Shown here: positions 21,697-61,900 of the stretch, piece after piece
Numbering within the stretch: position 1 is the first letter of the stretch
How the letters are laid out: the number at the start of each line of letters is the position of its first letter
Assembly (NCBI GenBank): GCA_950295325.1
Contig: OX485804.1
Coordinates: forward strand, 69,478,033-69,542,032
DNA from: Polytrichum commune
Lineage: Eukaryota > Streptophyta > Polytrichopsida > Polytrichales > Polytrichaceae
Direction: 5' to 3'
DNA: 64,000 bases
Made by a program: the position numbers and the translations under genes
Notes under the pieces: model-generated
What the model saw: only the letters and a program-made list of their open reading frames with translations
Database searches by the model: none
Told to the model about the DNA's origin: nothing

Positions 21697-22098
21697 GCTC
21701 AATTTTTTGATAAAATCTTCAAAGTTGGAACAATTTATTAAAGATATGCCTTTGAGACAAGGAAAAGTGAATGATCTTGATGGACGAAAATCAAGAAAAT
21801 CACAATTATAGAATTTTAAAATACATATTTGATGTAGAAAGGTTTGAGCATTAATCCAAAGGTTGTTGATGAAAGACTTTTGGTGTTTAATAGACTTGTC
21901 ATTTTCAAGTGAAAAGTGGATCTTCAACCAGCGAAGTTGGACGGAATGCTTTAGAATATCAAAAAGAATGTCCACATCATCACAATTTTGAACGCTCAAT
22001 AATCGAAGGTTTGGCATGTCTTTCATCTTAAAACTCCCCTCATATGTGGACTTATGTTCAAGCCTTTCAAATGTCATGCCTTGTACCCGTTCTATACA
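16526..22098 (-). CDS. Exon 3: about 58 leucine-rich repeats, interrupted
   Basis: After the acceptor TGCATGCAG the exon starts CIERVQG in phase with exon 2. A linker of about 135 residues leads into the array. Units of 24 residues alternate between two types, one with ALEELNFSRCRALKHVPEGF and one with TCLKQLWMWECEALEVFP, giving a 144-bp pair unit. About 4,170 bp of array excluding the LTR corresponds to about 58 LRRs, far more than the 10-30 common in NLRs. The stop at 16526 is a GGA to TGA change inside a unit, and decayed units follow, so it is probably a secondary C-terminus. LRRs usually sense effectors or guard partners. Confidence 0.85.
19740..20735. mobile_element. Solo LTR, 996 bp, target duplication ATAGT
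   Basis: Begins TGTCGCAACC and ends GTGCGCGACA (6-bp inverted ends TGTCGC/GCGACA). ATAGT flanks it at 19735-19739 and 20736-20740, within the LRR word CATCCATAGTTGTTTC. No internal coding or second LTR. A CATATAAGCC word near 20126 could be its TATA box. It is much more GC-rich than its surroundings. It introduces the stop at 20716 in the receptor frame. Confidence 0.9.
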
Positions 22099-22649
22099 CT
22101 GCATGCACAAACAAATAACATGTTATAAATAAACATTTAAAACAATTCATGCAAGTTTGTTTCAATTTTCTTCTTATGGGATTTAAGCATGATAACATTG
22201 ACAAAACAACTAGTTACACATTCAATCGACACATTCAATTGGACAAAAATTCCAAATATGTTCAAATACCTTAAACTTCTTGTGATATATCATCAAACTT
22301 TATTTGCACAGTTGGGGGGGGGGGGTTGCTGACCTAAATCTACTTGCAAAATTGAAACCTCCTTCCACACTCGAGTTCTTTTGTTACAAAATTTGCAAGG
22401 TTTATGTACATTTTTTCAAAGGTTTTTAAATTTGATACTACAACGATTATATTGAAAAACTATTATATTAATCAATATGCTGGATAATAATTTGTAATGG
22501 ACCATGGAGAACTTTGGTCATAGATAATTTCCAATTTTCTCTAGAATGATCAATGGTGGTATTTTTTTACAATGTTTGCACCCTCACTTGTGGCATGATT
22601 CGATTCTTCCGTATTGGAAAATAAAGGGTTTTGTTTGGATGATGCTTAC

Positions 22650-23708
22650 CTTTTGCTTACAATGGTCGGTGAATGTTCCCAAACAAAAATTCATAAGTCG
22701 AGTTTCTTTGAATTCTCCCAAGTTTGCAAGCATACGACCCATGGCACACAATTGATCATGAATTTTAAGCAATCCATCACCATCCACTGTCACGAGGGAC
22801 TTGCTGATCAAATTTTCCAAGGTTTTTTGGGCAATGTTGGCATCAAGGTCGGACATTCTAATTATGTCGTCCCCCGGAAAATAAAAACTTGGAAGGTATG
22901 GATCTAGTTGGTTGGAAAAACAAGAGATGTCAATAAACATGTTTTTTTCTCTATCGCCTAGCTCATCAAAGCTTATCCTCAATGTCTTCCATATTTGTTC
23001 ATCCGGACTTCCATCATGTCTAGCCTTCAACAATCTATGCAACGTTCTCTCCCATATTCGTAGTCGCCTCTCCCCATGTAAGCATTTGCCCATTACCTCC
23101 AAACTCAATGGAAGCCCACCACAAGCATTCACAATCTTCTCCGCTACATGTTTCAAATAAGGCTCACATGATTGGTCGGTCCCAAAGGCATGCATGGCAA
23201 ATAGTTCCATAGGTTGATCACCCTCAAGAGTCTTCATGTTTACGATGCCGTCCTTGTGTATGTATTGTGCAAAAGATTGCCGACTACGAGAGCTTGCAAT
23301 CAACTTACTGCCACTAACATCTTTGAATATTTGATCACCTAATAGTTCATGTAAGTCAATTTGTTCGCTCACGTTGTCTACTACAATAAGTATGTTCTTT
23401 GTTTTGCAAATATGTTCGATTGTTATTCTTGCTTCTCTCAATGTTTTTACTTGAGGTGCCTCTTGCATATCCTCCAACTTATGCTTGAATATAAAAGTAC
23501 ATGTGCCACCCTTGAAGTCACCTACAAAGCATGTCCCTTCAAATTGGTGGGAGATATGTACACTTAGAGCATTGGCCAATGTTGACTTGCCGATTCCTCC
23601 CATGCCAACAATCCCCAAACTACCAGTTTTTTGCAGTTGCCTTTCGAATTGAAGTATTTGGTCTTTGATACCAATCAAACTCTTAGATCCGGTCGTGGTG
23701 TTATTGAC
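22650..23708 (-). CDS. Exon 2: NB-ARC nucleotide-binding switch
   Basis: Begins after the acceptor TTTTGTAG and continues exon 1 without a frame change. P-loop GMGGIGKST at protein residues 646-654, kinase-2 ILIVVDNV, RNBS-B GSKLIASSRS, GLPL motif CGGLPLSLEVMG, a FIDISCF box typical of TIR-type-like ARC domains, and an MHD-like IHDQLCAMGR. This is a complete NB-ARC of normal size (about 330 residues). NB-ARC acts as an ADP/ATP switch in plant immune receptors. Donor AAAAG/GTAAGC ends the exon; the following 551-bp intron includes a run of about 14 G near 22316. Confidence 0.92.
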
Positions 23709-23876
23709 CTACAAAATCCCCAACATCCAATCTTAGCTTTATAGCAAATTACATGACAGATCATAGCATTTTCCAAACTATATAAAAAATTCAATATCAT
23801 TGATCTCATTTACATTGAAATATGATTTTCAAACTATATTTGACAACAAGCAAAATAATATCAACAACATAATTAC

Positions 23877-25709
23877 CTTATCAAGAGTTTGATGTAATGC
23901 TAGTCTGTTGCGTGTATCTTGAGGTAAATTATCGTATTCTCCAATTTTGGGCATAAATCGTAACCATGAGCTAAGGGTCACAAAAACTTGCCACAATAAG
24001 ACTGTTTGACAAAAGACACGGTAAATTATTCCCATGAGGTCTGTCCACCATTGCTTGGGATTCAACAACAAATCGTAGCTCCATAATGGTTCTTTTCGCT
24101 GAAGTATTTCATCCATAGAGATGACATTCTTGAACTTTGCGCTCTTTAACAACCTTAATGTATTGCAAATTTCAAAGAATGTGGGCCTCTCTGATGGATC
24201 CGAAGACCAACAATTCTGTATTAATGACTTCAATTCCTTTGAGCAATTTTTTGGTAGCTTTGGTCTTTTGCCCTCATGTATTAACTTCAAATATTCATCA
24301 TTGCGTGAAATCGCACCAAAAGGTTTTTCCCCTGTAAGAATTTCAAAACTCGTCATGGCAAAACTAAACACATCAGTTTTGAATGCATTTACTTCTGATT
24401 TTCGATTCTCAAATGCCTCGGGTGCCATATAATGAAAGGTGCCAAAAGGAAATTGACATGTGGGCACTTCTGGTGATTCTTTTACTTCAATTGTTGATAT
24501 TCCAAAATCAACCAACTTCACATGCACATATTCAAGGCAACCATCCGATTTTGAGACATCCATGGAAGTCACAACAACATTATTGGGCTTCAAATCACGA
24601 TGTGCTACCTTCATATCATGAAGGTAGCACATACCGCTTGCAATTTGTAACATAATATCCATTCGAATGGCTTCTGTGATTGAAGCTTTCTTTTCGACCA
24701 ATAATTTGCACAAGTCGGACTCTCCGCGTTCCATGACTAATTCAAATTTCTCAATCTCTTCATAAAAATACCCACAACAAAAGAACTTGATAATGTTTGG
24801 ATGATTTAATCCCCCCAATATACTTGCTTCTTTCCATAAAACTCTCTTGTGTTCAGGGCCTGCAACTTCCATCACTTTTGTCGCACTTTCAATGCCTACC
24901 CATTTAGTAGGTAGTACAACACATCGTTCTGAGCTTGTTTTACCCAAAGGAATACCCAACCTTCCTGAAGTCTTAGATTGTGGATAATCATGAGGGAAAA
25001 CAATTTTATCCAATTCTTCACCTCGAGCCAATTGTAGGCATGTCACTCGTCCCAATAGGTATTGTGCAAGTGCACGGTCCTCAATTGTGTCAATTGTCAA
25101 ATGCTCTGAGAGTCTTCTGTGTAAAGAATTCTCGTCCTCTTCAACTTCATCAATAGATGCTGGATAGAATGTAAGACAACTTTGAGTCTGAAGAATATTT
25201 TGGCTTTGACCTCGATAACACATTTGAGATATGTCACACATTATATGGAAACAACATTCCAAGTCCAAGAGAAGCTCTCTAAAAGTCTCTTTGTTGTTTA
25301 TTTGCAACACTGCACTGTGGCACCAATCTTCCTTGCAACATTCATGAACCACATTTTTTGCTTCGATCACAATCCGAACTAAATTTTGTTCAATTTCATT
25401 GAAGACATTCCTCCGGGACCCTTTGTTGATCTTTCGAATTGCTTCCACACCCTTTCGAAAGTTTGCCACCAAATTGTTGCATTGGTTTTTATTCAACAAA
25501 ATCGAACTTGACAATCTCATCATATCTTCAACGGTCTCCAAAGATTTCTTTATGTTGTCTGACATTTTGGAAGTGTTACAACAAAGAAAATCGTTGTTTT
25601 GGTATTTGGCTTTCCGTGTGAAGATTTGTGATGATAAAGTCAAGGTTTGCAACACAATACCTATGAATCCACACACTTGTGTGTTAATGCAATATAAGAA
25701 GAAACCCAT
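23877..25709 (-). CDS. Exon 1: helical N-terminal domain plus protein kinase
   Basis: Starts at ATG 25709, followed by a hydrophobic stretch (residues 1-25), which could be a signal anchor or simply a buried helix. Residues 50-230 are helix-rich with many Cys and could form a helical bundle. The kinase spans about 250-525: ATP-anchoring K278 in ATKV, helix-C E294, catalytic HRDLKPNN at 370-377, DFG at 401-403, APE at 429-431. The glycine-rich loop is weak (GRLGIPLG). Catalytic residues are all present, so activity is plausible. It ends in DK followed by the donor GTAATT, in phase with exon 2. A downstream ATG at residue 49 (MSDNIKK) is an alternative start without the hydrophobic segment. Confidence 0.88.
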
Positions 25710-26545
25710 ATTTTAAGAATGAGGTGCACAATACTATTCTGTGGAGACAATGGTATAAAAATATACACGGTTCAAAATTGTATTGGAATTTTTATTACTC
25801 ATATTTTTAAATCAATTGATTAAAATACAAAAATATAAGTACATTAAATAGGTTGGGTCATAATGTCCTCAACTCAATCTCTACTATAATATATCTTCAT
25901 TATGAACATTTGTCATCCATTGTGAATACATTCTTCAAACTCTTCAAACTCTATGGACATCTATCAAGACTTACCAAATTTAAGCAAAACACTTCAATAA
26001 AGGTCTCAAATTTATAAATTTTCAGTACAATGTCATAAGTAACAACCTTTGCTTTGAGAAAATTATGGAACTCTTGGAATAAATCGTCCATACCTATGAA
26101 GATGGTGATTTTGTGTCAATATCGCCCTTCAAATTCATCTCCAACCTCTCATGACCTGCCATCATTCTTCACAAAGTCCGTGTAATTTCTACAACAAATG
26201 TTCTCATTTGCTCCAGCAAAAGCTTCCTAGGAACAACCACTACCAAACTCAAAACAACAGCCAAGTTCCTACACTCACAAAAACCACCACTGACAAAATT
26301 GTGAATTCATAGTCTGATGGGTGCTTCCTCAAAGCTCTTTCAACTTCAACTTCATATACCAAATCTTGGACCAACAAATCGAAGCAACTTTTGAAACATG
26401 CAAAAAAAATGATTTTCTTTCCTTCTACCCTATGTTCACCGATCCGGAATGGAATAATAGCTCCTCCAATAGACAAAGAGCCCAAAGAAATCCACAACAC
26501 CGTTCATGACTCCATGTACCGGAACATTGAACCCCTACCTCTCAC
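25710..26545. other. Upstream region of the receptor, no gene seen
   Basis: AT-rich DNA just 5' of the receptor start. I see no strong TATA box that I would assign. A minus-strand ORF at 26249-26500 has hydrophobic ends but no recognisable domain. Confidence 0.4.
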
Positions 26546-44183: not shown

Positions 44184-45920
44184 GAGCTAAGCCAAAAAAT
44201 TGGTTAAATTACATAATATGTTGGTGACTCCCACATCCACCTCCGGCACACTCTCACACTTTCAAAACACAATACAAGTTGATGATCTTGCATTGCGAAC
44301 AAAAATGAAAATGCAAAATCGTCAAGTCTACAAAAATAGAAACCATGTTAGAATGTATCAACAAAGTCCCAAATTAACACGCAATAATTAAGAATTTTAC
44401 ATTGAACAAATTATCATTTACCCTAGGAATTTTGTCAATTCCCGAACATAAAGGCAACTCATTGGTGCCCCCCCAATCCTTTGCAATTACAATAATCATA
44501 AGTTTCCGCATAAGCCATTACATCCTACTTAGTTTATTTTACTTTAGGCATGAATACATGCATGCAATCATCCTCATGAAGGTAAGCATTAGCGGATTTT
44601 AAAATGGCCTCAATGTTGGAAACAAAGGGTGCATTCCACTTCAAAATGGTGTTGGGTGGTGAGGAGACATTTGGAATGGGTAGCCCTTTTGGCAAGTCTA
44701 CAACTATAAGGTGAAACTATACTTTCAACCACATAAGGACATCTACAATCAAACAACATCCACAATTCATATTACATCATTAAGCAAATTCTATTAAACA
44801 ATGATAATGGACCTCAACGAAGGCATATATACCATTAATTGTTTTTTAAATCCAACATGTTCACCATGATAGGTTGTCGATCAACACCATTATCCAAAAT
44901 CGATGTGATTTGTGTATTCTACCCCATAAAGAAAACATGTTGCAAACCTAATGAAGATGAAGAAATGACCATGATATCTTCATTAAGATGTTGTGGTTCT
45001 TGTTATGAATGTTGTTGAGAGACATGAATAGCATTCGAATTGGAAGCATGCACTCTAGAAGGGCTAGAAGATGGCCTCCCCAAAGGCAACATGGACTCAA
45101 GTTTTGTCTTGTGTGTTGAGTGACAACCAATTTGGAATTGCGTTTGCATTTTCCACCTTTCTCCACTAGCACTGATGGCACCTATGGTAGAACATGGAGA
45201 ACATTGACCATGTCATGATCATCATCCCCACCTATGATAGTTCTAGCTTCTACTCTCTCCTCTTTCTTGTTTGTAGGATGAATTGTTAGTGGACACTCAA
45301 GAAACCAAGGGTAATTTTGTAAAGTGGCATTTTCCCATGTCCTCAACTATACTGTAAAAAAATAAAATGCAAAATTCACTTTTTGTGGTCTAAGCCGGAA
45401 ATTTGTCATTAAAATAAATGATAGCAAAATGATTACAAAGATTAATACATGTATATAACACGCTTGATAACAATCTTTTCACCAACGTACTCCTCAAGTT
45501 TGGACGACTTATTGAATGAGGTTTTACCCCTAAACATGGTATGGAAGCCTTTGGTTTATAGAAGAATTTGCCACTTTTCAATGTAATCCTATGCGGAAAC
45601 GATATTATCTTTTAATGATATTGGACCCATATCACATTCGCCCATGCTCTCATGCTACATGCTCCAAGTGTGAGACCAAGAACTTAAAACTTGCTAAATG
45701 CAACTACCAGATAGATAGAAACTCCGGTCCCTTTTAGGGGCCGGCGTGAATAGAGTGTCCGTTCGTAATGCCAACAACCCGATGCCCACAGGACATGGGG
45801 AAGTTGGGACAAAACTACTCTCCTCTTTCGAGGATGGACACTATAGTAACCGAGAAACAAATAACATGGGCCGATCATGGCCCACGGGGGTGCATGCCTT
45901 TTAAGTATAAAATTTTAGTG
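44184..45920. other. Unassigned region, broken minus-strand ORFs
   Basis: Short minus-strand ORFs (44948-45181 and 45390-45581) have protein-like composition but no domain I recognise. They may be further remnants of the methyltransferase-like gene. No repeat or RNA gene is clear. Confidence 0.35.
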
Positions 45921-45929
45921 TTTGGTAAT

Positions 45930-46085
45930 GAGAGTGAACACCAAGTCATGATTCCTCGGTTGGTTGTGGGAGGATGTTTGAGTTAAGACGTTCCGGGTTC
46001 GATTCCAGTCGAGTCCGTATGATCGTCTAAAATGTAAGACGTGACTTGGTGCTGCAAGTGAGTAAAAGGCAGGAAATTTGTACCA
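45930..46085 (+). repeat. tRNA-related SINE-like sequence
   Basis: An RNA polymerase III B box (GGTTCGATTCC, 45996-46006) is preceded about 35 bases upstream by a loose A-box candidate (TTGGTTGTGGGAGG). No tRNA cloverleaf can be drawn. It abuts the 3' end of the minus-strand LINE. A SINE is the simplest reading. Confidence 0.4.
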
Positions 46086-46160
46086 ACCAACCGGCACCAA
46101 TCCCTCATTCTCAACTGTAAATAGATATTAAAAATTAAAAATTATATAAGTTTTTGGGTT

Positions 46161-48716
46161 TTATGGAGGGTCTAAGTTTTGGGGGAGCGGTTGGTGGTTT
46201 TCAATTCTCCTCTTATGGAGGAGGATGGACATGGCATATTGTATTGCAATGGTATTAATATTTTTAAAGGTATTTTTGATGGTAACCATGGGTATTTTGA
46301 GATTTTCTTCTAGTATTTTCATAGATGGGATGTGGGCCGTAGCTCGGGCCCCAGCTGTGATGACAATAAGTGGTTCGATTTTCCATCCTCTGGAAGCGAT
46401 ACTATCAATCAATGGTTTGTATTTGTTGTTTTTTGCTTCTATTGCTTCTGGGGAGAATCTGCCGTTACAATATGTGAATTCAATAAATTGTATGGTGAGG
46501 TTAGGGTCAATGTCAATGGGAGGGTCATTTTGATATGGTAATCCTTTAACGCAGAGTATATCAGGTCGAAATCTTGCGTTGCAATGACATCTTTGTGTGT
46601 TACATGTGCAGGGGAGTAGCCAATTGGGGACAGTATTTTCTTGGGGATTATTATTGAAGGTACCGGCATTCATGAGAGTAAAACATCGGAATTTTTCGGA
46701 CGAGATTAGGAGCTTCCTAATTTCTCCGATTGCTTTGTTATGTCTTTTAATTCGTAGTGAGTGTATATGTTGTTGGTTACATTTCAGTAGTACATGTAGC
46801 CAAGTGTCTGGATCATTTGAATTGCATATAGGGCACGTGATAGAGGGGTACCTCCGGTGACCGAAGAACATTTGTTTTCTAGCATTACCCATGTATGTTC
46901 CTGTGCGGAATTTAATAAGGCAGGATTTTTGTTTGTCTGTGATTAAGGGATTTGTCCAGAATTCGTTGGACAGTTCTTTGTCTATGTCTATATTTTCTGT
47001 CCATTTACACGTGTTGGGGGTTTGTGTGGCCATGATTGCTATATTGGTTTCCCTATCATATTTTTTAATTTGTTTTTCTAAGAATCTTACTGGGCCTTTG
47101 TCTGGGACGTCTGCCATCGAGGCCCAGACGTCATTTTGATAATAGTACGGGGTGGCGTGGGCATGTTCGTATGGGTGGATGGCAATTCTGTGTTCTAATT
47201 CTAACCCGTCTTTTGCTAGTTTATCCGCTTTTTCATTACCGTCAATGTTGACGTGTGCTCTGACTTTGTATAGTGTGATTGGCTGTGTACGGTCTTGAAG
47301 GATTTTTACCATGGAGTTGAATGTGGTTTGGTCTGGGTGACTATTATGGAGAGTGGGGTGTTTAATTTGTGTGTTGAGTAGGTATAATACGTTTAGACTG
47401 TCTGTGAATATAGATGCGGGTTCATTAGGGAATTGTGTATTGATGATTCTTAGTGTTTTGTGTATAGCCATCATTTCTGCACGTAGTATGTTTTGATGCC
47501 CATGGAGTCTTTTGGCGATATTTAAGCCTTTGGGGCTATAGATACCGTATCCAGCTCTTTCTCTTCTCCATACCCCAGGGGCAATTTCTTTGGGTTTTAT
47601 AAAGGATCTGTCTGTGTAGTAGCTAAATTGGGGGTGGAATTTTAGCGGTAAGTTAGTTTGGTAGTTTGGAAGTTGTGGGGTGGGGATGTTATTGTATAGG
47701 GGTGTGTTTGGGTAGTTTGATTTAGCCCATTTTTTACTAGGGTTAACGGTGATGTTCGGAGGGGTGGGTGGTGCAATTTGAGTGTGGCTTTGTAGTATTT
47801 GGAGGTTATTTGCTGTGTCTTTTATTAACTTCATTTGTTCGTAGGTACCTATGTTATTATTTTGGTGATGGATACAGAATATTTGCATGGTAGATGGTTC
47901 TTTCCTTGTGATATTGAGCTCGGAGGGTATTGTTGGTTCTTCATATGTGATTGTGTCAACGGCAAAATGGGCAATGACATGTGTGTCTGGGAATGAGCCT
48001 GTGTGTGGGTTCGAGTTTTGGTACCAATCAGTGTCTGGGGATATAATTATAGTGATTGTGTAAGGGTCATTTTGGGCCGCCATGCGTGCCCAGTGAATGG
48101 CTTGTTGTAGGTCTGTTGAGTTGTGAGGATGTGCGTATCCGATTCCTTGCCATTTATAGTCAAACATTTTACCTAAGGATCCAAATATTATGTCTCGCGA
48201 GAATGGTGAGTAGAATTGGGTGAATTGTGTAGGACATGTAACTGGGGATGAAAAATATGAGTGGTTAATATTGAATGTTGTAATTAATAGATCCAATATT
48301 TGAGTTGGTATTGTATATTGGGCTCTTTTGAGTGGGTCGTTTTTGGGGATACGGTATTTGTATCTTTGGTATAGCCAAACAATTTCAGTTTCGAATGATT
48401 GGGTAGATGGTTCTAGACCGTGTGTGGTATTTTTTGCCAATTGGTATTGTTTCCATAACCATGTTAGTCTAGCTTTCGGGATGGTGATGAGATGCCTTCC
48501 ATTGTCTTCGTATATGTGAGCGACATCGAATTGTGTTTGGATAGTATCAGAGTTTGTTTCAATGTCGTTTTCTGGGTTGCATTCACTAATAGAGATATGT
48601 GCTAGCGGAATTATTGTGGTCGGTGTGACGTATCTTGTGTCTCGGTGTTGTTCTGTGGTGAAGTAGGCGTTAATGATGTTTGAAAAATGCTTGTGTTGTC
48701 TTTCTGTGTAATATTA
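46161..48716 (-). pseudogene. LINE ORF2 C-terminal part: RNase H, CCHC finger and RLE
   Basis: The frame is open above the TTG at 48440 (residues RLTWLWKQYQLA continue upstream). RNase H: first Asp in YYTDRS, Glu in RAEMMAI, second Asp in FTDSLN, and the HVNIDGNEKADKLA box, so all four acidic residues are kept. A CCHC finger follows (CPIC, then WLHVLLKC) with the IKRHNKAI word seen beside the finger in R2-type elements. The RLE then shows RPDIL (Asp at 46560-46562) and FIEFTYC (Glu at 46479-46481), with KYKPLIDSI and a hydrophobic strand after it. The N-terminal 250 residues (QQAIHWARMAAQ, IIISPDTDW) are not RT; they recall a methyltransferase-like domain in algal elements, a weak inference. 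Confidence 0.82.
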
Positions 48717-49646
48717 GATAAGCAGGTTTGTGTTGTGATTGCATATGTTGGCTTCACAATAGGGGTATAGGTCCCTTTGGGTTCGCCATTTATTATATGT
48801 GTTGTTATTTGTTGTGGTCCATTGACATAGGTATGACGTGACTGTTCTTTTTATTCCATTGTGGTCATTAGATTGTTTCTGTTTGTGATCGAGTATTTTG
48901 TATATGGGGAATTGTTGGGGGTCTTTAAGCATGTTGTTGGGGGGAGGAGGTAGATGGGGGATGGGGAGGTTAGGGGGGTGTACGGGGGTGGGCGGTGTGT
49001 GAGGTAGGATGTTGTGATTTCTTATTATATATTTGTTTTTGAGGGATCTTGTTGGGTGATGTTGTTGGCAAGGTAGGGAGCATTGATTGCAGGGGGGGGG
49101 TGGCAGAATAGTTGATTAGCTATATTAAGTGCGCTTTGGATAAGTTTCGAAGGAGTGGAGTGGTAGATTTTGAATTCGTCCTTGTTCATTAGAGTGGTAC
49201 CATTAGGCATGGTAATTTGGTCTAGTGTGGTTATATTATGTATAAGTAGTTTGTGTAGTAGTTTAAGTGAGGTGTTGGGGTTTAGGCCATGTAGCATTTG
49301 TGCTTCTTGCATCCATGCTTCTTGCATCCATGTAGTTTCAAATGAGGATGGGGTTAGTACAAAGTTATTTATTGTGTTTTTTAGATGGACTCTGGCTTTA
49401 TGTTTGAGCAAGAACAATGTTCTAGTGATGGGTGATCTAACACAGTGGTGGTATTTAATGCGAGTGATTTCTTGAGAGCCCCCATATTTGGCGAGTATGA
49501 ATTGTAATAGACCAGTATATATTTTCCCAATTCTCCCTTTGTCATTGAGGGCATTTTGTAGTTGTTCTCCAATGCATCTTAGATATGCATTTTGTAATGA
49601 GAAAGCTTCGATTCCAAATAGGTTGTGTGGGAGTTGTGTAGCGATG
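48717..49646 (-). pseudogene. LINE ORF2 linker between RT and RNase H, frameshifted
   Basis: Minus-strand coding resumes in changing frames: 49417-49025 (FLLKHKARVHLKNTINNF) and 49572-49381. It lies between the RT thumb and the RNase H part and is probably the post-RT connection region. Several frameshifts and a low-complexity Pro-rich stretch near 48930-49020. No domain is recognised. Confidence 0.5.
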
Positions 49647-50155
49647 TTAGATGTACATTTGGGTATCCCGCAAATTGTTTTGTAAAGTGCTATGATTTTT
49701 TTTATCTAGTTTTTTTATAGCTGGTATGGAGTAAGGTACTGCGTAGAAGCTGTATGCTATTCCAGCGCGTATGAATGTATCTGCCATGTTTATTTTTTGT
49801 TTCATAGTAGCTGGGCATGTTGCAAGGGCTTGACATTGTTTGATGACTTTAGCTGTAGTAGTATTTATTTGTGTTTTCCATTTGAGTGATTGTGCAAGGT
49901 TTATTCCTAGATACGTGTATGGTTCATGTTGATTTAAGACTGGTATAGGTTGATTCATGTAGTTTATATTGGTGGATTGGATCGAGGCTTTAAAGGTTGT
50001 GGGGTGAAGTTTGGATTTGTTTGGGCAGCCAGTTATTGCACACTTGGGTATTCCAAGGTTCATTCCTGCCCATTCGCAGAATTTGTCTAGTTTGTTGAGT
50101 TGTGTTTGCAGTGTCTCTAGTTTATTGGCGATTGCTACAAGATCATCTGCATATG
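49647..50155 (-). pseudogene. LINE reverse transcriptase, C-terminal half (from YADD)
   Basis: The reading starts within the catalytic YADD box at 50155-50140 (ADDLVAIANKLETLQ) and runs through CEWAGMNLGIPKCAI, the YTYLGINL box and the thumb. Stop at 49647. The YADD codons are cut by the solo LTR at 50156, and the first half of the domain continues at 52315. Confidence 0.85.
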
Positions 50156-52314
50156 TGTGAGCCCAAAAGGGTGCCCACATTTAGTCTTAGACCCTTGAAA
50201 CGTTAGTTGATGCACTTTGAAGTAGCATGTTACTTCACAAAAATATAAAAAGAGTGAAATGTTAGTCTTAGAAGTACCATGTTGTAAGAGGCTAGGATGT
50301 GAGTTGTTATTGTGTTTTTACCTTCGGAAGGATTTGAGTGAATGAGGATAGGTAAGGAGAACTTGGATTGAGTAGTTAGTGAGTAGGCTAGTACAAATGG
50401 ATGGAGACAACCAAAGTGACTCAAGAGGCAAGTGCATTCGAATTGGGATGAATGGAGGATCACATGGAGCGCACAAGTGGACCACCTCATCATGGCCACT
50501 TAATGGGGAAGGCCCAAGGAAGAATGCAAGGTGGAGGATAAGCAAATTCTCAAAGCACCAATCAAATCACGAGTTAAGCATCGTGGTTTGAATTAAGTGG
50601 TGAGCGACGATTTGGGAAAGTAAGGGGAGAAAGTTATGGCGGCGGAAAGCGAAGGAGGCTAAGTTTGGGTTGAAGCATCCCAAGTTTGGTAAAGTGTGGT
50701 AGGTAGAAAGCCAAGGCTAGTTAAATGTTCGAATTAGGATCCTTGTTGATCATTTGAGGGAGGAAGGCTTAGAAGATAGGATTGGCGCCTACTAAGTAGG
50801 AGGAAATCTCAAGGGCTTATCGTGAGCCTTGAGGGTGCTCACCCCCTCAAGCTTACTATATAATCCCTCATTCTTCCCTCACTCATCCTCTCTTTCCTTT
50901 GTGCTCCAAGGCACCCCACGAGTTATAAGTGTGGGTGTGGGAAGCCATATTGGAGCACATGTGTGTGCTTAGTTTTTAGTTTGAGAGCCAAGGCTTGTTA
51001 GCCTTGAAGAGGGCTTGACCTCTTGGTAGAATTAGTGTTGACGTGAAGGATTTTAAAGTTAATTCATGATTCCAATTTGTGGTACTTAAAGTTCATGTTT
51101 TGAATACACGTGGTTGCAAGTTCCATGTTTAAGAGTTGAGCACTTGATGTTGTGATGAGTGCAAAAATATACTTGTGTGGATTAGTTAGTCTTAGTGAAG
51201 TTAGGAAATTCTCTCTCTCCCTCTCCTCTCTAGGATTTTAGGATTTTAGGATTAGAGAAGAATTGTGTGATTAGAAAGGGGTTGTTAGTAGAATTAGGGA
51301 AATTAGGTAGGAAGATTAGTTAAGGGCTTGAATAATTAGTGAGGTAGTTGGGGATTACAACTACAAAGTTGTGGGTTCATGAAGGAGCTGGGTTTGTTTA
51401 GTTAGAAAGTAAAGAGCTGGGTTTATGAAGGAGCTGGGTTTGTTTAGTTAGAAAGTAAAGAGCTGGGTTTATGAAGGACCTGAGTTTGTTTAGTTAGAAG
51501 CTAAGGAGCTGGGTTTATGAAGGAGCTGGGTTTGTTTAGTTAGAAGCTAAGAAGCTGGGTTTATGAAGGAGCTAGGTTTATGTAATTAGAAAGTAAAGAG
51601 ATGGGTTCATGAAGGAGCTTAGTAGATAGCCTACCTAATTAGCTCATAGACAAGTAGTTAGTTACATTATGCTAGTTAGTGTTATGGTGGCTTTCACAAG
51701 TAAATGTATTTGAGATTGACTATAGAGAATAGTGTTTTTTTTAACACTTGCATCCTCTCTTTAAAAATAAACCACGTGCACAAATTAATGGAGAATGTGG
51801 AGCACTCTCGCGATGGCAAGACAAAGGAAGCAAAGACCAAAGGTGCGAGGGAGAGATTGACATAAGTCACATAAGTATTTCTTAATACTTAAAGGCTTAT
51901 GTACGGTATGGAGACACCAAGTGAGACCTCTTATAGTAGCGATACGGAATACACAAGTGATAGTTCAAGTGGTAGTATAGAGTCAACGGCACGGACTCCA
52001 TTTAGGAGAGGGATATCCTTAAGGGCTTGTGTAGCTAAAGCGGCCGGATGGACGTTAGAAGCAAACAAAGACAAAATAACACCCGAGCATAAGGAGGTTA
52101 AAATAACATAGTTAACTTGTGCATTCTCCACATACGTATTGAAATTGTACATTGAGTTGTTAAAAGTGAAATTCCAGTTAAATCCAAGACCACTTGAAGG
52201 GTGAACCTTGCACTATGGACTCATCCAAGTCCAAATCCAATACCGCGGAGGAATGTGAGCCCAAACCCACTACTCGGACTACGGACGCTTAAGGGTGGGG
52301 GGTTTGGCCTCACA
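50156..52314 (-). mobile_element. Solo LTR, 2,159 bp, target duplication ATATG
   Basis: On the minus strand it begins TGTGAGGCCAAACC and ends GGGCTCACA; ATATG flanks it at 50151-50155 and 52315-52319. Same family as the copy at 29438-31137: ends and the TATATAG box (50857-50863, minus) agree. It has its own internal satellite at 51365-51620 (units of about 45 bp with AGCTGGGTTTATGAAGGAGC), in place of the 88-bp satellite. It sits inside the YADD codons of the LINE reverse transcriptase. ORFs at 51899-52152 show no domain. Confidence 0.92.
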
Positions 52315-53400
52315 ATATGCTGCTGATGAGATTTTTACTTTAGATGTGCCAAAAGTGTATCCATTATTTCCTTGTTGTAGCCATCTGAGGAGGGGTTCTA
52401 GGAATATGATAAATAAATATGGGCTAAGGGTATCACCTTGTATTGTACCTCTTTGAATAGGAATTGGTGAGATTTTTCCGAAGTGATCGCCAGTGAATAT
52501 TGTTGAGGATTTTGAGTATATGTTTCCTATGAGGTTTATGGAATCAGTGGGATATCCCAGATCTTTCATTATAGCTTAAAGTCTGGTGTGATCAATGGAG
52601 CCAAAGGCGTTTTTGAAGTCAATGTAGAGGATGTATATATCTTGGTTCGTGAGTCTTGCGTCTTCAAGCGCTCCGATGAGTAGTTGGATTTGTCTAGAAG
52701 TGTTTCTCTCTGCTCTGAAGCCTTCTTGATTGTCATGTAGTATTTGGTATTTTTCGCCATATGTTGATAGAATAGAGGTTAGTGTACTCGTGTAGAATTT
52801 ATATATGGTGTTAGCTAGCGCAATAGGTCTGTGGTTTGTTAGTTGTGATGGGTTTTTTTTTGTATAATAATACTGTTAGACTGGTTTTTCATGATGCTGG
52901 AATTTATTTTTGTTTATAACAGTGTTTAAAGAATAGGAAGAGTAATTTGTGGAAGCGTGGAGGCATATTTTTTAGAATTGAATTAGGTATTTTGTCTGGG
53001 CCTGAGGCTTTTACTTAGGTTTTTAAGACAAAAGTCGTATGTTTCTTGGTCAAAATACGTATGTAGAGGGATGTGGGGTTCTCCTCGCTTGTCAATTATG
53101 TATCCGTCTAGGTCATGCCATGGATATTGTCGGACTCCACATGTGCAGTGTAGTGGGTGTGTATTTCGGTATTGGCATGTGGGGACTGTGTGACGGTTAT
53201 TGATGGATTGTTGTATGTAAATTTCTGATGCGATGTCTTCTGGGTTGGTTAGTATATTGTTTTGTCTATCAATGATGGAGTCCAGGGGTGAGGTTTCAGT
53301 GTTCTTGAAGACTTTCCGATTTATTTTTTTGGGGCTTCTTTCGTACATTTGTCTGTATTTTGATACGGCTTTTAGAATGCAGTCTTTGGTGTATTTTGTG
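52315..53400 (-). pseudogene. LINE reverse transcriptase, N-terminal half
   Basis: Reads through an EN-RT linker (NPEDIASEIY at 53348-52983), then in other frames a finger/palm region: RPIALANTIYKFYT, QEGFRAERNTSRQ, then YILYIDFKNAFGSIDH with the first catalytic Asp, the GTIQGDTLSPYLF box (52569-52279) and KISSAA just before the LTR. At least one stop (near 52574) and one or two frameshifts occur. Order and motifs are those of LINE RTs. Confidence 0.82.
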
Positions 53401-53713
53401 GTGATTTTTCTAGCTTCTTTATTTGTTTTTTTTGCTATGGTTGCTATGGTATTAATCCATTCAGTAGGAGGTGCCGTTGTGATAGGTGGGTGTGGGATAT
53501 TTGTGTGTTGGTGGTTTCGTATATCGTTTAGGATGGGGTGTGCTTGCCAGAGTGGATCGTGTTAGGTGGTATGTGTTGAGGTGTCTTTTCCATTCTCTCG
53601 CCAATTTTCGTGGCAGAAAACCACCTTGTTGTGATGTTCTGCTCGTAAGGTTTGGTAACGGGTCTGCTTTACATATTTTTTCAATTGTTTCTGAAATTTT
53701 GTTAACAATATGG

Positions 53714-55125
53714 TCAAATGTTGTACAGGCTTTTACCCATTGATCCGAGCTTAAGTGTTGATGGTTTTCTAGTAATGTGGTAAGGATTTTTATTTGGGCA
53801 GAGTTTTTCTTCGAAGAATGTTATGTTGAATTTTTCGATATTTTCTGGTGGTATTGGGTTTAGTATTCTAGTTGGTGACGTGTTTGTGGGGAGTGGGGAT
53901 CTGGCTATAAGGGTGTTGTGGGGGATATGTAGTACAACTGGATAATGGTCTGACTTTAGATTCATATTTATATTTGTGGTGGAGATGAATTTGCCGTTGT
54001 CTGGTGAATGGATGTAGAATCCATCTATTAGACTTATTGATGTGTAATTATAGCCTCCTTGTCTGGAGATGCGAGTGTTAGTTGGGATATATTCTAGGTT
54101 GAGTGATGTAGTAAAATTTTTCCATGGGTAGTATTCTTCTTGTGGGGGGTGTTAATGTTGTTATTTTGCCTGCCTCTAAGTACAATATCACGGTTAAAGT
54201 CGCCATATAATGTGTATATGTGATTGGGGTTTATAGTGATTTGATTAGTGATTTCGTTCTTAAGGTGTGGGATGAGGTATATGTCTTCTAAGTGTGTAGG
54301 CATATACATATGTATAATTAGCCAGGGTATTAGTGGGTGATTGTTTATTTTAATTATTTGTAGGTATGGGGAGATATTTGTTGGTATGGGAATTTGGGTA
54401 ATATTCCCAATGAATGCATATTTCTTGTGGATAAGTGTTAGTAGGCCTCCTCTTCCGGGTGTATAGGGCATTCTTTGTTGTATGCATCTTGTGAGTGCAT
54501 GTGTGTTGTTAAAAATGACTTTAAAATCCGGAAATAGATTTTGTATATATTTTGTAGATTTGTTTGCAGTTAGTTTGGTTTCTTGGATATGGATTGTTGC
54601 TGTATTGTTTAGCGAATTGTTTATTAGGCTTTGTAGGTTTGGCAGTGAAGTGTTGAGTGATGATGCATTCCATGTTATTATGTTTGTTTTGTGTTCAGTG
54701 TCTGTGTTGATTCTTATGGTTGGTGCGGGAGTAGCTGGGGGTGGGGGTGGGGGTGGGGGTGGGTGTGAGTATTCGTCTATGCTTTCTAGGCATCGAAGTG
54801 CTTCAGTGATTAATTTATTTGGGAGGAAGGGAAATTTGTTTTGAAGGGTGATGGGTGTGGGTGTAGTATCTTGGTTATGGATGAATTCATATATTTCTGT
54901 GTGTATTGAATTTTTTGGGAGTATTATATCTTGATTGTTTCCTACAAATGTTGTGTAGGGGTGAGGTGTCAATATGTGCCTTTCGGGGGGGTTGGTGAGG
55001 TTAGCTAGTCTGATAATTAATGTGTTGGTCCATATGTCGTTAAAGTGGTAATTTTGGGGTTGGACTAGTATGTTATTGCATATGTCTGTTGAGGGGTGGA
55101 TGGTGATGACTATAGCATATAGCAT
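53714..55125 (-). pseudogene. LINE APE-type endonuclease
   Basis: After a Pro-rich stretch (near 54740-54775, nine prolines), the domain begins NIITWNASSL, then IHIQETKL (metal-binding Glu), GRGGLLTLI, HMYMPT and YTLYGDFNRD (54205-54170). The frame then shifts and the final SDHYPVVLHI box is in the ORF at 53965-53714. These are the motifs, in order, of the exonuclease-endonuclease-phosphatase fold used by L1/I-type LINEs. Together with the RLE at the C-terminus this gives two endonucleases in one element. Confidence 0.88.
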
Positions 55126-55513
55126 ATGGGTTAGTGGTGATTGCCTTTGTGTTTGGATGTATTGATGTAGATGTGGGTGGGTATTTATTGCTTGATGGTG
55201 TAGTGGGTGTGTGTTTTTTAGTATGGGAGCAAATGTATTTGCTATGTGTTGGTATTCAGGTTGTAGTTTTATAGTGTTTGGGATGAAGTATATGTTGGCT
55301 TTTTTTTTTTTGTAGCAGGGTGTGTATGTAGGATGTTAGGCATTGGTCCGGGTTTGGATTCTATGTCACCGCATTTTAGTAATTCTAGTTTGTTAATGAA
55401 GTAGTATCCGTGGGAGTGAATTATTTTTGGATTTTTCATGTTTGTTTTTAGATATATTGTGATTGTGAATTTGGTTGTGGTAAAGAGGTTAGGTACAGCG
55501 GGTATGGTATTTT

Positions 55514-57172
55514 CTATTTGTATGGGTGAGAAGTGTGGTTTTGTATTATTGAGTTAGGTTTCCAATTATTTATGAAGTGGTATTTGTTATTATTTGTGTG
55601 GCGAGGCCGGTAGGCCGAGGCCATTGTGTTTTTTGGGCGGGGTTGGTATTTTGTATGAGGGCTTAATAGGTTTTTGATTTTGTGATGGTGTTCGAAGTTA
55701 GGGTAGGGTTTATTTTTGGAGCATTTGTTTTGTAGGTATGCTTTGGTGTTTGTTGAGAGGTGAGGTTGGTAGGTTGAGGTTGCTTTGTTTTTCGGGTTGA
55801 GTTTTTGTTTAGTGTGCAAATTTAGTTTTGAGTAGGGGTGGTTTCTGGGGAATGATTTGTGGTTTTGGTGGGTGTTATATTTGGTTAAGAGGTGTGTATG
55901 GGAGTTGTCTTGGAGTACGTGTTTTGTAGTTGTGCGTGGTTTCCATTTGGTTGTGATAGGGTTTGGCTTGTGGTGGAGATGGTAGGACAAGGTCATTTTG
56001 TAATTGTGATATGATTTGTATTTCAAGTGGAGGTTGGATTTGGAGCTAGGGTATGGTGTGCTTTTTGAGCGTAGGTTGGGATGTTTTTTAGATAGTGGGT
56101 GAGGTTCTAGGTTAGGTTGGGTTTCTTGTTTTGAGTGGGTATTATGCTTTGGACGTTGTTGTGGATGCACTTTGTTTTTAAGGTAAAGTCTAAGTTTTGA
56201 GCGGATTCTATATTTCGGATGAAGTTTATTCTTTGGATGGGAGTTGTGTCTTGGATGGAGTCTATGTTTTGGATGTGATATGTGTTTTGAGTGAGGTTGG
56301 GGGTGTTTGTGGGTTGGATGGGCATTGTAGTGTAGGATGGATGTGATTTCTTCAAGTTGTTTGGGTAAGAGGTGTGTGTTGTAGATTGTTATTACTTTTG
56401 GTTTCTCTTCGTTTGTAGATTGGTATTTATAACTTTTATGGCGTGGCCGGTGGGCTAAAACCTTTTTGTGTTTGGGTGCAATTTTGTGCTTAGTGTGGGG
56501 ATGGAGTTGTTTTTTGAGGTAAAGATTTGGGTTAATGTTTTGGTGTGATTTGAGTGTTTGATCTTTGTTTTTATTGGTTTTTTGGGGTGGAATGAGTATG
56601 GGTCTGGATTTTATGTGTCCTGAGGGTGTGTGTTGTGCGTAAGTGTGATTTTTATTTGTTTTGTTAGGTATCCATTTGCTTGTGGATTGGTGTTGAGTAT
56701 AATTTTTGTTGATTGTTTTTTGTTTTGTTTTGTGTTTTGTTAGGTTTGTTATACGTTTGGTTGTATTTATGATGGTAGGGTGGGGTAGGGATTGTGTTAT
56801 ATTTTTTGGTTGTTTAGATGTAGGTGGAGGGTATGTGTTGGCTATAGGGGTGTACTTTGAGAGAAGTCCATGATGGATATTTGATGTAGTGTTTCTTGGA
56901 TTTCTCTTTCTTAATTTTTGGTGCTTGTTTCGTGTATATTTTATATTCGTTGTACTTGAGGTAACGGGGTGGTATCCATGTAGGTTAGTTGTTTTTGATT
57001 CTTGGTATTTAATGAGTGCGAGTTTTGTTGTAAAGGAGGTGTGTTTTAGGATGGATAGAATAATTTCTTGTCGTATAGGTAAGGGATGTGAGTTCACATA
57101 GTATTTAGGTATTTGCTTTGTTGTGCTTTTGGTTTTAGTTATGTTGGTAGGGTTTGGTAAAGTGTGTGTCAT
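55514..57172 (-). CDS. Low-complexity basic ORF in the LINE leader
   Basis: 552 codons from an ATG, made almost entirely of Thr, Asn, His, Lys, Pro, Ser, Gln and Tyr. A region around 56300-55700 repeats HPKHK/HPKNKLHPK-type words, spaced by about 8 residues. No domain is recognised. It lies between ORF1 and the endonuclease on the same strand and could be the N-terminal extension of ORF2, perhaps nucleic-acid binding given its charge. That so long a frame stays open while neighbouring frames are broken may reflect composition (T/G-rich plus strand has few TTA, CTA or TCA words) rather than selection. Confidence 0.45.
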   Translation of the reverse strand: MTHTLPNPTNITKTKSTTKQIPKYYVNSHPLPIRQEIILSILKHTSFTTKLALIKYQESKTTNLHGYHPVTSSTTNIKYTRNKHQKLRKRNPRNTTSNIHHGLLSKYTPIANTYPPPTSKQPKNITQSLPHPTIINTTKRITNLTKHKTKQKTINKNYTQHQSTSKWIPNKTNKNHTYAQHTPSGHIKSRPILIPPQKTNKNKDQTLKSHQNINPNLYLKKQLHPHTKHKIAPKHKKVLAHRPRHKSYKYQSTNEEKPKVITIYNTHLLPKQLEEITSILHYNAHPTHKHPQPHSKHISHPKHRLHPRHNSHPKNKLHPKYRIRSKLRLYLKNKVHPQQRPKHNTHSKQETQPNLEPHPLSKKHPNLRSKSTPYPSSKSNLHLKYKSYHNYKMTLSYHLHHKPNPITTKWKPRTTTKHVLQDNSHTHLLTKYNTHQNHKSFPRNHPYSKLNLHTKQKLNPKNKATSTYQPHLSTNTKAYLQNKCSKNKPYPNFEHHHKIKNLLSPHTKYQPRPKNTMASAYRPRHTNNNKYHFINNWKPNSIIQNHTSHPYK

Positions 57173-57529
57173 CTTCCTTAATTGTCTAGGTGTATGGGGG
57201 GGGGGTAATGGATTGATTATAGGAGTGTTCGTTGTTATTGTGTGAGGTTTTTGATGTGTGCTTGATGCATTTGATGTGGTGAAATGGTATTTATATGGGT
57301 TAAGTATCTTTGGTTTTTTCTTTTTTGATTTTTGTAATATTTTTAGTGTATGTTTTGTTGTAGGATGGGTGGTCGATGGGGTGGGTATTGTGTTTTTTTA
57401 TTTGTTTAGGTATAAGGTGTGTTACCGGTTGTTTATTTGTTTGTGTGTTGTTTATTGTATATTTAATGGACGTCTTTGTTTTTATTTTAGTTATTTGTAA
57501 TCTTAGTGTGGTATTGGCGAGTACTATGC

Positions 57530-57740
57530 TAGTTTTGTTTGGATTTAGAATGGGTGTTATGTGTATTTTACATATATCATTTGATAGGACTATACAGTAT
57601 TTGTATAGGTGTTTGTTGTATTTTGTATATGAATATACTTTTGTATTATATGTTTTTGGTATTGTGTATGTCCAAACTAGTTTTGTCCATATAGTATTGA
57701 AGAATACTGTATGGGGTTTGTATTGTTTTTTATTGTATTA

Positions 57741-57771
<31 letters not shown>

Positions 57772-58020
57772 CATTTTTACTTGATGTTTTGTATGTCAAG
57801 TTTAGTTTTATACGTATAGTATTTAATAATACTACACAGTATTTGTTTTTGTATTTTGTATATAAATATAAATATATTTTATTTTTTCTTGATGTTACGT
57901 ATGTAGGAACTCGTTTTTTACTTGTAGTATGTATTAATACTGTACGGTATTTGAATTTGTTTTTGGCTAGTTTTGTATAAAATTTTTTTTTTTTTTTTCT
58001 TGGCGCTACGGTTGTCAAAA
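57530..58020. repeat. Diverged tandem repeat of about 120 bp between the LINE ORFs
   Basis: Four diverged units share the order of a GTATGT.AA..TAGTTTT word, an AGTAT.AATAATACTG word and a TATTTG run; there is a (TA)n microsatellite at 57739-57764 and a T-run at 57979-57998. The minus-strand ORF (58018-57677) starts with a Lys-rich stretch that comes from the T-run. Confidence 0.6.
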
Positions 58021-58101
58021 CTAGTTTGACGTGTCCATATTACCTTCAATTTCGGGTGTGTCGGGGTGATCGGCTTGGAGGGTTTCCAAAGTGATGCGCA
58101 T

Positions 58102-59653
58102 TTATTTTTGGAAGAATGTTATTTGAATTCTTGAGTTGCGGTTTGATTCTGCTTGTACTTTGTCGGCATACATTCTTGCTTCTTCTACAATTTCCTCTTT
58201 AAAGAGGCTCGTCTCTTGCCGAATTACTACTGCTCCTTTATTTACCGCCTCTTCCACCATTTTGCTTAAGTCTGCTTTTGTGTATCCTTTCGAGGGTGCA
58301 TTTTCCATTGCTTGAATTGTGTTGGCAAGTGCGGTGTTCACATCGGAAAACCCTAGCCTAGTCAGTTCTATTGGGGAAGGGGCGTCAATTCCATCTAGGC
58401 TTTTGGGGTGGGGTGAAAATTCTACGTATTTACCATTAATTAGGTGATTTTGTTTTACAAATTTCTTGTAGACCACTGCATTTAGACATTGCACATTGCA
58501 TGACCCCACAGGTTTCCCTTTCTCTAATTGGAAGAAAATACCCGCTACATTTTCCTCCCCAAAGAGTTTCTTTATTCCCTCCTCTAAGGCAGCGGTTGTT
58601 TTGGCTTTGTTGAGGTTCTTTGCAATTAAAACTACCGCATTCTTTTTGGCCTTGTCATCCTCGGAAAGTTTCTCTGTACTAGCAAAGTGTACTTCCATAA
58701 TTTCATTAAAAAATGATATTTTGAAGTTTTTAACTTTCTTTGCTTGGTCCGGAGAAGGGGTTTTAATCCATGCAAATTCGGCACTGTCATTTTTTTGCAC
58801 ATTGGTAATTTCAAATTCATACACTCACTTAAAGCTATCTTTGACAATCTCTTCATGCAATTGGAACCATTTTCTATTATTGAGTGTTGGACTAGAGATT
58901 TTGACCGATAGCAAGTTTGCAATGGCTATGGAATCAAATGATTTGAATGTCTTTTCCTCTACAATAGGTTGTTTTATCCAACTTGAAGATAAATGACCTA
59001 TTGCCATGTAGGAGATCATTGGCATCTTTCATTGGGTTCTTGAGGTGGAGTGTGATTGTTCCACTCCACCTTTTAGAAGCATGAAAGCAAATGATGGCTA
59101 TAGGTTCTCCTAGGATCTCTCCTAGTTCGATGTTCATAGCTTTTAACCTTGCTTCCGTTTTTCCATATATTTCATCTCTTGATAAGTTTCGGTCACAAAG
59201 CTCAAAGGTTATAGCCACTTGGTAGTCAAGAGAAAACCCTCCTTCATCTATTTCTACATCGAAGGGTACTTGAGTGAGATTGAAGTGTCCACCTTCTTTA
59301 CCATCCATCCTTTTGGAAGGCCAAGCCTCTTGGGGGATGTAAGGGAAGGAAAGGACCGCTTCTAGATATTCTAATGCCTCATTATGTTCCATTCCGAATT
59401 TAACAAGTTCACTAACCGAGTATGTTGGTTCTAATGCTTCACCATTTTCACATGCAAGTGCATTCATTGTATGATATCCCAACCAAAAGAAAGGGCGTTG
59501 GGGTACAACTCCTTTGCCCTTTGCTTTCTTTTGGCTAGACACAATCATGACACCGACTTGTCTTTTTTGACCGTTTGTTAGTGCATCTATCATATCAACA
59601 CTTTGCTCAAATAATTTCCTAGTGGTGGCGGCAACATTGGTGGATGTAGACAT
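58102..59653 (-). pseudogene. Gag-like ORF1 with one frameshift and one stop
   Basis: ATG at 59653 (MSTSTNVAATTRKLFEQS). About 240 residues run to near 58985, where a frameshift moves coding to the frame 59025-58825; a TGA at 58825 then interrupts, and the same frame goes on to 58102. The middle has the GEPIAIICFHASKRWSGTIT stretch, then HLKNPMKDA, like the RNA-binding ORF1 (gag-like) of plant LINEs and related retroelements. The C-terminal part is helical and acidic/basic mixed. The ATG follows a good splice acceptor (TTTGTTACAG), with a donor CCAG/GTAAGACT at 60248, so a 594-bp 5' UTR intron is likely. If real it suggests a host-type (domesticated) gene or an element transcribed from a host-like promoter. 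Confidence 0.6.
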
Positions 59654-59654
59654 T

Positions 59655-60248
59655 CTGTAACAAATACAATGTTCAAATGAGTGACATGGTTTTTGTATAG
59701 TTTTAACTAAGTCTTTACTTCTTATCATCCCTATGTCAAATCCATTCCACAAATTAAGTTGTGGGCCAAATTGGATATTGGTTTTTGGGAAGAAGTGTTT
59801 TGGTTGTCTTTTGTATAATTTGCTACTATTGGTTTTGTAGCAACAACTATTAGCAATCCAAATATGCAACAATTTTGAGTTTTTACATTCTACATTAGTG
59901 TGTTGTTGTGTTAAGTGTTCAAGGTGTGTGGGTGTTTTGATGAGATACATAAGGTTCCAATATGGAGAGGCATAAAAACATGGTGGTACTACTTTGGATG
60001 TTGATTTATCTTCATGTATGTTTTCATAACAACAACTTGAATACCCTATCCAAATGGTGTGAGAGAGGACACGGTGAGAGGATTTCCAATATGGGGAGGC
60101 TACTATGAGCCATAATACAAAAGCAAACATGTTTGCATATGCAACCTTCATTCTACCTCCTATCTTGAAAGAATGATTACTATGTGACTACTTGTTACTT
60201 AAGTGTGTGCATCTAAATCTATGTGCAATGAATAGTTAGGAGTCTTAC
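59655..60248 (-). other. Candidate 5' UTR intron before ORF1
   Basis: Minus-strand donor CCAG/GTAAGACT at 60248 and acceptor TTTGTTACAG ending at 59655, with the ATG one base inside the next exon. The stretch is AT-rich compared with the upstream exon. It is open in the ORF1 frame, so unspliced translation is not excluded. Confidence 0.5.
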
Positions 60249-61900
60249 CTGGTAGTTCTCTTCGACCTTGGTTGGTGCAAATTCTTCCCAGGATCTCTGG
60301 TTTAGCTGGGAAGGGCCTGTCTTCACCGCTCCGCAGCTCCCGCTTACTTTGCAACTCCGCAGCTTCTCAACACCCTCTTACTGCACAGCTTCTCAGCTCC
60401 AACTTGCTTCTTGGGTAGATTTTTGTCTCTCAATGTCCCTCTAGCAGCTCCTCTTCCGCAGCTCCTCTCGAGTTTCAAGCAGCAGCAGCAGCTCTCCAAC
60501 AAACACTTATTGCTCCGTGCTCCGCAGGGATTCAGCAGCTCGGTTGTGTAGCAGCAGGTTTATTCAGCAGCCTCGGCTTGTTGTAAGCCTCGGATTCTCC
60601 TCACTCCACAGTGTACTATTCACTAAAGTTCTAAGCAAACTTCAGCTCTGCAGATATGGTGAGAGAAGGAGGCAAATTTTTTGAGAATGTATCTCTGGGT
60701 GACAACACCTAGTTTGCAGATCTTTGTTATCAAACTAGAATGGAATTTGAAGGTTGTCTAGCTCTGGTGTGAGTTTCGGAGACTATCTGCCGAGTATTCA
60801 CGGGGTGTTCCTCACATATAAGCAACTCCTCCAAAGTATCACCAAAGTATCACAAAACTTCCTAAAATTTTCTAGACCTGGATCAAAGCATGAGGAAGCA
60901 ACATCGACCACCTTCTCTTCGGCAAGTGTGAGATCAGCGTGCGTGTAGCTCTGATGAGGATCTCTGTAGGATCTCTGTATGCTGGGTGCTGAATGCTATT
61001 TCGAGTGTAGAATTCGTGGTACTGGGTTCGAGGTGGAGATCCCAGTGCTGGAGTGATGTAGGATTTCGGTACCGTTTGAAGATCTCAGTGATGTTTCTAA
61101 GGTAGAGATCGCAGAGGGAGTGGGCTTCGGAGACTTTCCGCTGACCAACTTCGAGGGTGGAAGCTCGGTGTTGGGTCGAGGCTGGGTTTCGGTGTTGGGT
61201 GCTGGGTCAAAGTCAGATTTCGGGTGAGATCTCGGTGTTGAAGCAAGATTTCGGTGTTGGGTTGAAGCAGGTGCAGGTTCGAAGTACTGATTTCGGTGCT
61301 AGTTTGAGATCGAAAGAGGGGGGGACCTTGAAGGAGCTTCGGGCACCAACTGCACCACAATTCTTTGAGGATAGCGGTGTGGATATCAACAGTGACAGGC
61401 CTGCAAAGAAACGGAAACAATCTGGTGGGTTGCAGCAAGTTTCGGTGCTGGTTCGAATACAGATTTCGGTGCTGGTTTCGGAGAGCAGATTCCAGTGCTG
61501 GTTCGGAGTGCAGATTCCGGTGCTGGTTCGGAGTATGGATTTCGGTGCTGGATCGATTTCAGATTTCGGTGAGTGGTGGTTTGAAGATGGGAGACTCGCT
61601 GTTGTGTGACAGTTGGGAGTTTCGGTGTTGTGCGGCAGGTGGGAGTTTCGGTGCTGTGCGGCAGCGACTGTATTCAGCTTCGATGGCAACCTTCGACAAC
61701 AATGGCGGACGACTGCTTCGGAGAATGGAGGCCTTCGGGGATGGCGTTCTTCGGCGGTTTCGGCTGCTTCGACGGCACTACAGGTGACGGCTTCGGCATC
61801 AGCAGATGGGCAGAGAGTGCGACGATGGATGTGGCAGCAGAAAGAATGAGATGGGTGTCGTTGTTGTTGTAGTAGTTATATAGTGTTTTGAGGGGGGAGG
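60249..61900 (-). promoter_or_regulatory. Candidate promoter and long 5' exon of ORF1
   Basis: A minus-strand TATA box (TATATAA, 61876-61882, in CACTATATAACTAC) is followed by about 1.6 kb with GCAGCAGCTC-type and TTCGGTGCTGG-type repeats and many ORFs in all frames, none with a recognised domain. The stretch ends at the donor at 60248. This could be a 5' UTR exon, or the long GC-rich leader of the retroelement. Confidence 0.4.
61170..61600. repeat. TTCGGTGCTGGTTCGGAG minisatellite
   Basis: Imperfect units of about 18-30 bp built on GATTTCGGTGCTGGTTCGGAG, densest at 61430-61570. They lie inside the putative leader exon. Confidence 0.75.

Follow-up and report, generated by a model that had tools for sequence, protein, structure and literature searches.

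The 64,000-nucleotide window of Polytrichum commune DNA analysed here (contig OX485804.1, positions 69,478,033 to 69,542,032) very probably contains the decayed remains of a long interspersed nuclear element (LINE) from a plant lineage of the Dualen group, for which an insertion cycle is proposed below. By its sequence, one such element encodes an open reading frame 1 (ORF1)-like basic segment, one or more 2A-like motifs, an apurinic/apyrimidinic endonuclease-like domain (APE), a reverse transcriptase (RT), a PCIF1-like domain, RNase H and an R2-type restriction-like endonuclease (RLE), and ends in a structured 3′ untranslated region (UTR) with a pyrimidine tail. According to the cited sections, the joint presence of APE and RLE defines Dualen (PMC4640811, PMC3636483), RNase H is reported for Dualen/RandI (PMC4640811), and the group is known from volvocine algae, with families in all species of the study concerned (PMC8226300); the cited part of a 2022 review lists the LINEs of land plants as L1 and RTE (PMC9033089). 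Our literature search recognised no paper on Dualen in land plants, which does not establish its absence from print.

That both endonucleases belong to one element, as the original prediction had claimed, was established by intact relatives. Thirteen loci of the 407.8-Mb host assembly were picked by the authors from 150 scored RT matches, the criterion being an RT match of about 800 nt. Profiles built from relatives detected RT at all 13 loci and APE, the PCIF1-like domain, RLE and a 2A-like motif at 12 each, and APE, RT, PCIF1-like domain and RLE were all present, in that order, at ten. At L009 alone, a single open frame of 2,372 amino acids carried everything, with the APE words TWNAG, QETK, GDFN and SDHYP, the RT word YADD, the words CCHC, RHN, RPD and FIEFTYC, and all four RNase H residues. 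Over 2,400 columns its identity to the window protein was only 41.6%, and L009 is therefore assigned to another subfamily. The database relatives P0083 and P0088 likewise carry APE, RT, the PCIF1-like domain, RNase H and RLE in a single protein. Some of the sequences used to build the APE, RT, PCIF1-like and RLE profiles (database proteins and the window) were themselves scored afterwards, and the independent tests were Pfam, the PDB and the host loci only. No relatives were found in scans of viral contigs, genome contigs and phage records.

The RT was also placed in a tree. An RT match was present in 164 sequences, of which 118 passed a coverage limit of 0.72, with P0116 admitted at 0.713; 53 of the 118 were dropped by hand, and the resulting 65-sequence tree was rooted at its midpoint. 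With 200 iterations of ultrafast bootstrap (UFBoot), the convergence of which is uncertain, the window RT fell in a clade (support 99; inner nodes weaker, at 84 and 70) with P0116 of Pleodorina starrii, a protein with Josephin, APE and RT, and this clade joined the R2 clade with support of 100. When L009-L011 were added in FastTree, the window family and host copies formed one clade (1.0) within a wider clade that included P0116 (0.985). P0116 was taken as Dualen from its architecture and host, in a reference set that lacked Dualen/RandI of C. reinhardtii. The RT thus lies outside the APE-only clades, grouping beside R2 with dual-endonuclease relatives, and a Dualen-like lineage in a land plant, the central proposal of the original prediction, was supported by both nucleases in one element, the RT clade with P0116 and the RNase H. 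The position of Dualen has been used to argue that APE replaced RLE (PMC4640811, cited section), and the bearing of our element on how LINEs changed endonuclease is topological only. The element resembles the Dualen/RandI of volvocine green algae, as described in the cited sections, in combining APE with RLE, in its RT clade and in its RNase H. It differs in its plant host, with NB-ARC and leucine-rich repeat (LRR) genes, in its 2A motifs, and in its PCIF1-like domain, which the cited sections of the Dualen papers do not mention; P0116 ends in the RT and is uninformative on RLE and the PCIF1-like domain.

The PCIF1-like domain has the fold of PCIF1/CAPAM, the cap-specific adenosine methyltransferase. 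The likeness covers the methyltransferase half (human residues 416-668), and the match leaves the N-terminal portion of that solved chain uncovered; here, unlike in PCIF1, NPPF is lost and the domain is fused in a LINE. We do not file it as a cap methyltransferase because the catalytic NPPF occurred in none of the 44 aligned sequences. Thirty-four of these read HP or HH followed by a residue and a one-residue gap, and the window equivalent is HPH (about 48123-48131). An active methyltransferase working on the element's own RNA, in the manner of N6,2′-O-dimethyladenosine (m6Am) formation, or on DNA would fit the retention of the fold across sampled relatives, the conserved D and FG that precede the NPPF-equivalent motif, and the SPPF, VPPF and HPPF of P0056, P0081 and P0088, but it is unlikely given the uniform lack of NPPF and the FPTD and HPKD of L009 and L010 at that position. 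According to the cited section of a 2019 opinion article, land plants such as tracheophytes have no transposon-borne DNA methylases (PMC6338049). The fusion brings to LINEs a type of domain that our literature search did not find described; no paper with a PCIF1-like domain in a LINE was recognised, which does not show that none is in print. A chromodomain ahead of the PCIF1-like domain reached just 12-13 bits, under the cut-off, with one invariant column in the alignment (A6). Near this chromo-like region, a PHD-like finger scored 22.6 bits in P0098 (cut-off 24), and similar fingers were read by eye in P0059 and P0120. The sister-type proteins P0141, P0151 and P0152 have RT and RLE with no PCIF1-like domain detected; P0141 and P0152 additionally have RNase H and a sub-threshold APE.

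Upstream of the APE, the strict 2A core, (D/G/C/N)(V/I)ExNPGP, was found in eight database relatives of the window family, at residues 62-617 of their open frames, in two other LINE proteins (P0160 and P0172), and at 4 of the 13 host loci (L010, L012, L018 and L021); the upstream stretch of P0045 was too short to judge. Two 2A-like motifs preceded the APE at seven loci (L009, L010, L011, L012, L017, L018 and L021), which suggests duplicated 5′ modules. The motif and the ORF1-like frame could be accidents of A/C-rich 5′ sequence, with the replicase starting at a methionine just before the motif, as A makes up 46% and C 31% of the upstream sequence, a stop lies between the upstream ORF and the 2A frame in the window, and an ATG occurs 23 codons ahead of the motif. 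This explanation is improbable, since the 627-codon stop-free run exceeded all of 1000 order-2 Markov simulations (maximum 282), the canonical motif lies within open frames in the eight relatives, and both motifs of L011 share one frame with the APE and RT that follow. Protein-level homology also links the upstream frame to relatives whose sequence goes on into 2A and replicase. The core sequence is shared with known 2A/StopGo sequences; unlike those, the motifs here, which are putative skipping signals, occur in a Dualen-group plant element, often as a tandem pair. Odon, in 2013, is said to have described 2A/StopGo sequences in APE-type LINEs. The core 2A motif is set out in the cited section of PMC12846837, which reports no use by plant viruses.

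Translated on the minus strand, the window copy falls into ten pieces that overlap or adjoin between about 55,439 and 46,161; along them follow the 2A-like motif, the APE words, the RT blocks and the C-terminal 850-residue frame, in that order. The copy is a fossil because of its eight frame changes, four in-frame stops and a 2,159-bp terminal inverted repeat (TIR) insertion splitting the RT active site, at which the relative P0040 reads an uninterrupted SSAAYADD. The inserted transposon holds 46-bp tandem repeats (5.4 copies). Ten pieces with a 2.1-kb insertion are what two separate LINEs, one of APE type and one of RLE type, nested or side by side, might leave in imitation of one element, but this is ruled out for practical purposes by the single open frame of L009, by P0083 and P0088, and by the recurring domain order.

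The motif set reported by the original prediction (APE words, RT, RNase H, CCHC, RHN and RPDIL...FIEF) proved real. Pfam scans of the window pieces gave no match for the APE, and its catalytic words could be aligned with their counterparts across the wider family; among the relatives, a Pfam cut-off was passed by three of the six database proteins and two of the three host copies scanned, while the APE of P0050 had no match in the PDB by sequence. The C-terminal frame contains the words CCHC, RHN, RPDIL and FIEF, and in the alignment of the RLE region (A2) C, H, C, H, P, D, E and K were invariant and one further C nearly so. The proposed RLE identity held, as the region matched the R2 RLE by both profile and fold. 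The element is thus like the R2 protein in its CCHC-RHN-PD..E..K endonuclease and in its RT, for which R2 proteins were nearest among solved structures; it differs in also having APE, RNase H and PCIF1-like domains, which R2 is not known to carry. An ordinary APE-only plant L1 or RTE element with a C-terminus resembling RLE by chance, which would fit the review of land-plant LINEs cited above (PMC9033089), can be dismissed, since the profile and fold matches rule out chance likeness, the RT of P0040 is nearer to R2 (2.2e-30) than to L1 (2.2e-18), and the window RT lies in the Dualen clade.

About 130 nt after the stop codon were common to twelve host copies, ending in a CTTTT-type pyrimidine tail. 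RNAalifold predicted 33 pairs in these copies, 12 with compensatory changes. The covariation score exceeded all 500 shuffles and all six slides, with the structure derived from the same, related sequences as those tested, while the count of further pair types was not exceptional (reached by 316 of 500 shuffles). In the window, a match to the resulting covariance model (R1) lies downstream of the ORF and shares its strand, and 45,695-45,843 probably sets the 3′ end of the LINE. The next R1 matches had E values of 0.008 and up and were mostly opposite-strand hairpins of the building copies; L001-L008 and L012 had no match. Green-algal SINEs (short interspersed nuclear elements) linked to RandI have ATT or CTTT tails (PMC3747384, cited section). 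Between the ORF end and the 3′ UTR structure, a plus-strand stretch resembling a tRNA T-arm was read by eye (45930-46110), possibly a SINE insertion. A tRNA at the 3′ flank was rejected, as ARAGORN found none in the window. An Rfam search of 44500-60500 gave two matches, both far below the gathering score.

In the proposed cycle, ribosome skipping at the 2A would, by analogy, release the ORF1-like part from the large replicase, which would recognise the 3′ UTR structure. One endonuclease would nick the target so that target-primed reverse transcription can start, and the second cut would, most simply, fall to the other; the template RNA would be removed by RNase H. The PCIF1-like domain, having lost NPPF, may serve as an RNA module rather than a methyltransferase, possibly holding the capped 5′ end of the element's own mRNA. 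We tentatively put forward, at somewhat less than even odds, a broader view in which most of the sampled Dualen clade carries a captured, PCIF1-derived pseudo-methyltransferase for cap recognition, the plant branch added 2A skipping, and these LINEs may couple recognition of the capped 5′ end and the structured 3′ end of their own mRNA to two-endonuclease insertion. How the two nucleases share the work becomes directly testable in a plant lineage that has both of them, a genomic copy with an open frame, covariation in its 3′ UTR and a fused domain resembling a cap methyltransferase.

Several observations weigh against this interpretation. Analogy is the basis for the nuclease division of labour, for 2A activity and for the role given to the PCIF1-like domain, and the window copy itself is incapable of activity. 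The APE-annotated P0144 and P0161 attach next to the R2 plus Dualen group with support of 90. Three of the 13 host loci are short of one of the four domains (L012 RLE, L018 PCIF1-like, L020 APE), the RLE of L012 probably lying past the end of the fetched sequence. PCIF1_WW scored 27.4 bits in L009 and 26.1 in L010, below the Pfam cut-off of 31.1, which L011 passes. The window motif departs from the strict 2A core (K for N); eight of the 13 loci have only variants with Q or H for E, and L020 has none. The 3′ UTR match of the window is weak, at 28 bits versus 115-150 for the model-building copies. The cysteine protease with which the original prediction had compared the element to Dualen/RandI failed to appear: when the window pieces and the L009-L011 frames were scanned with Pfam, no protease was found, Josephin and OTU included. 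Josephin or OTU was present in P0091, P0093, P0116 and P0083 (P0091 and P0083 below cut-off), and the protease is not part of the APE plus RLE definition in the cited sections (PMC4640811, PMC3636483).

Table 1. Features of the LINE copy and its insertion, in window positions.
Feature	Position	Strand	Basis or remark
Upstream ORF1-like frame, basic, K/H/N/T-rich, 627 amino acids, AYRPRH module near end	55514..57397	-	Simulation and homology
2A-like motif GDIESKPGP, altered	55344..55370	-	Most database relatives: DIEPNPGP
APE endonuclease, two frames	53918..54687	-	N/E/DxN/SDH residues present
Reverse transcriptase, interrupted at YADD by insertion	49895..53011	-	RVT_1 pieces
TIR DNA transposon, 2,159 bp, in RT	50156..52314	-	TIR TGTGAGSCCAAA, direct repeat CATAT (5 bp)
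850-amino-acid open frame with PCIF1-like domain, RNase H and RLE	46161..48713	-	Translation
PCIF1/CAPAM-like methyltransferase-fold domain	47625..48686	-	PF12237, 5.6e-12, 46 bits (cut-off 31.1)
RNase H domain	47202..47564	-	PF00075, 2.6e-12
CCHC finger, RHN and PD...E...K restriction-like endonuclease core	46433..46835	-	Alignment, profile, fold
3′ UTR structured element	45695..45843	-	Covariance model R1 (12 host copies), 28 bits, E 0.0003 (rough)

Elsewhere in the window, a minus-strand region (16526-25712) with protein kinase, NB-ARC (with WHD_ROQ1) and long LRR frames resembled a kinase-NB-LRR resistance gene cluster, and its LRR repeats also keep long antisense frames open. These plant-type kinase, NB-ARC and LRR genes point to a land-plant host. 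A hAT-type transposase lies in two frames at 6314-9568 (DUF659, Dimer_Tnp_hAT). Two same-strand frames upstream of the LINE (58102-60187) had no Pfam match above cut-off, and a 778-residue frame at 3278-5614 matched a RING finger only weakly (24.7 bits, under the cut-off of 27.3).
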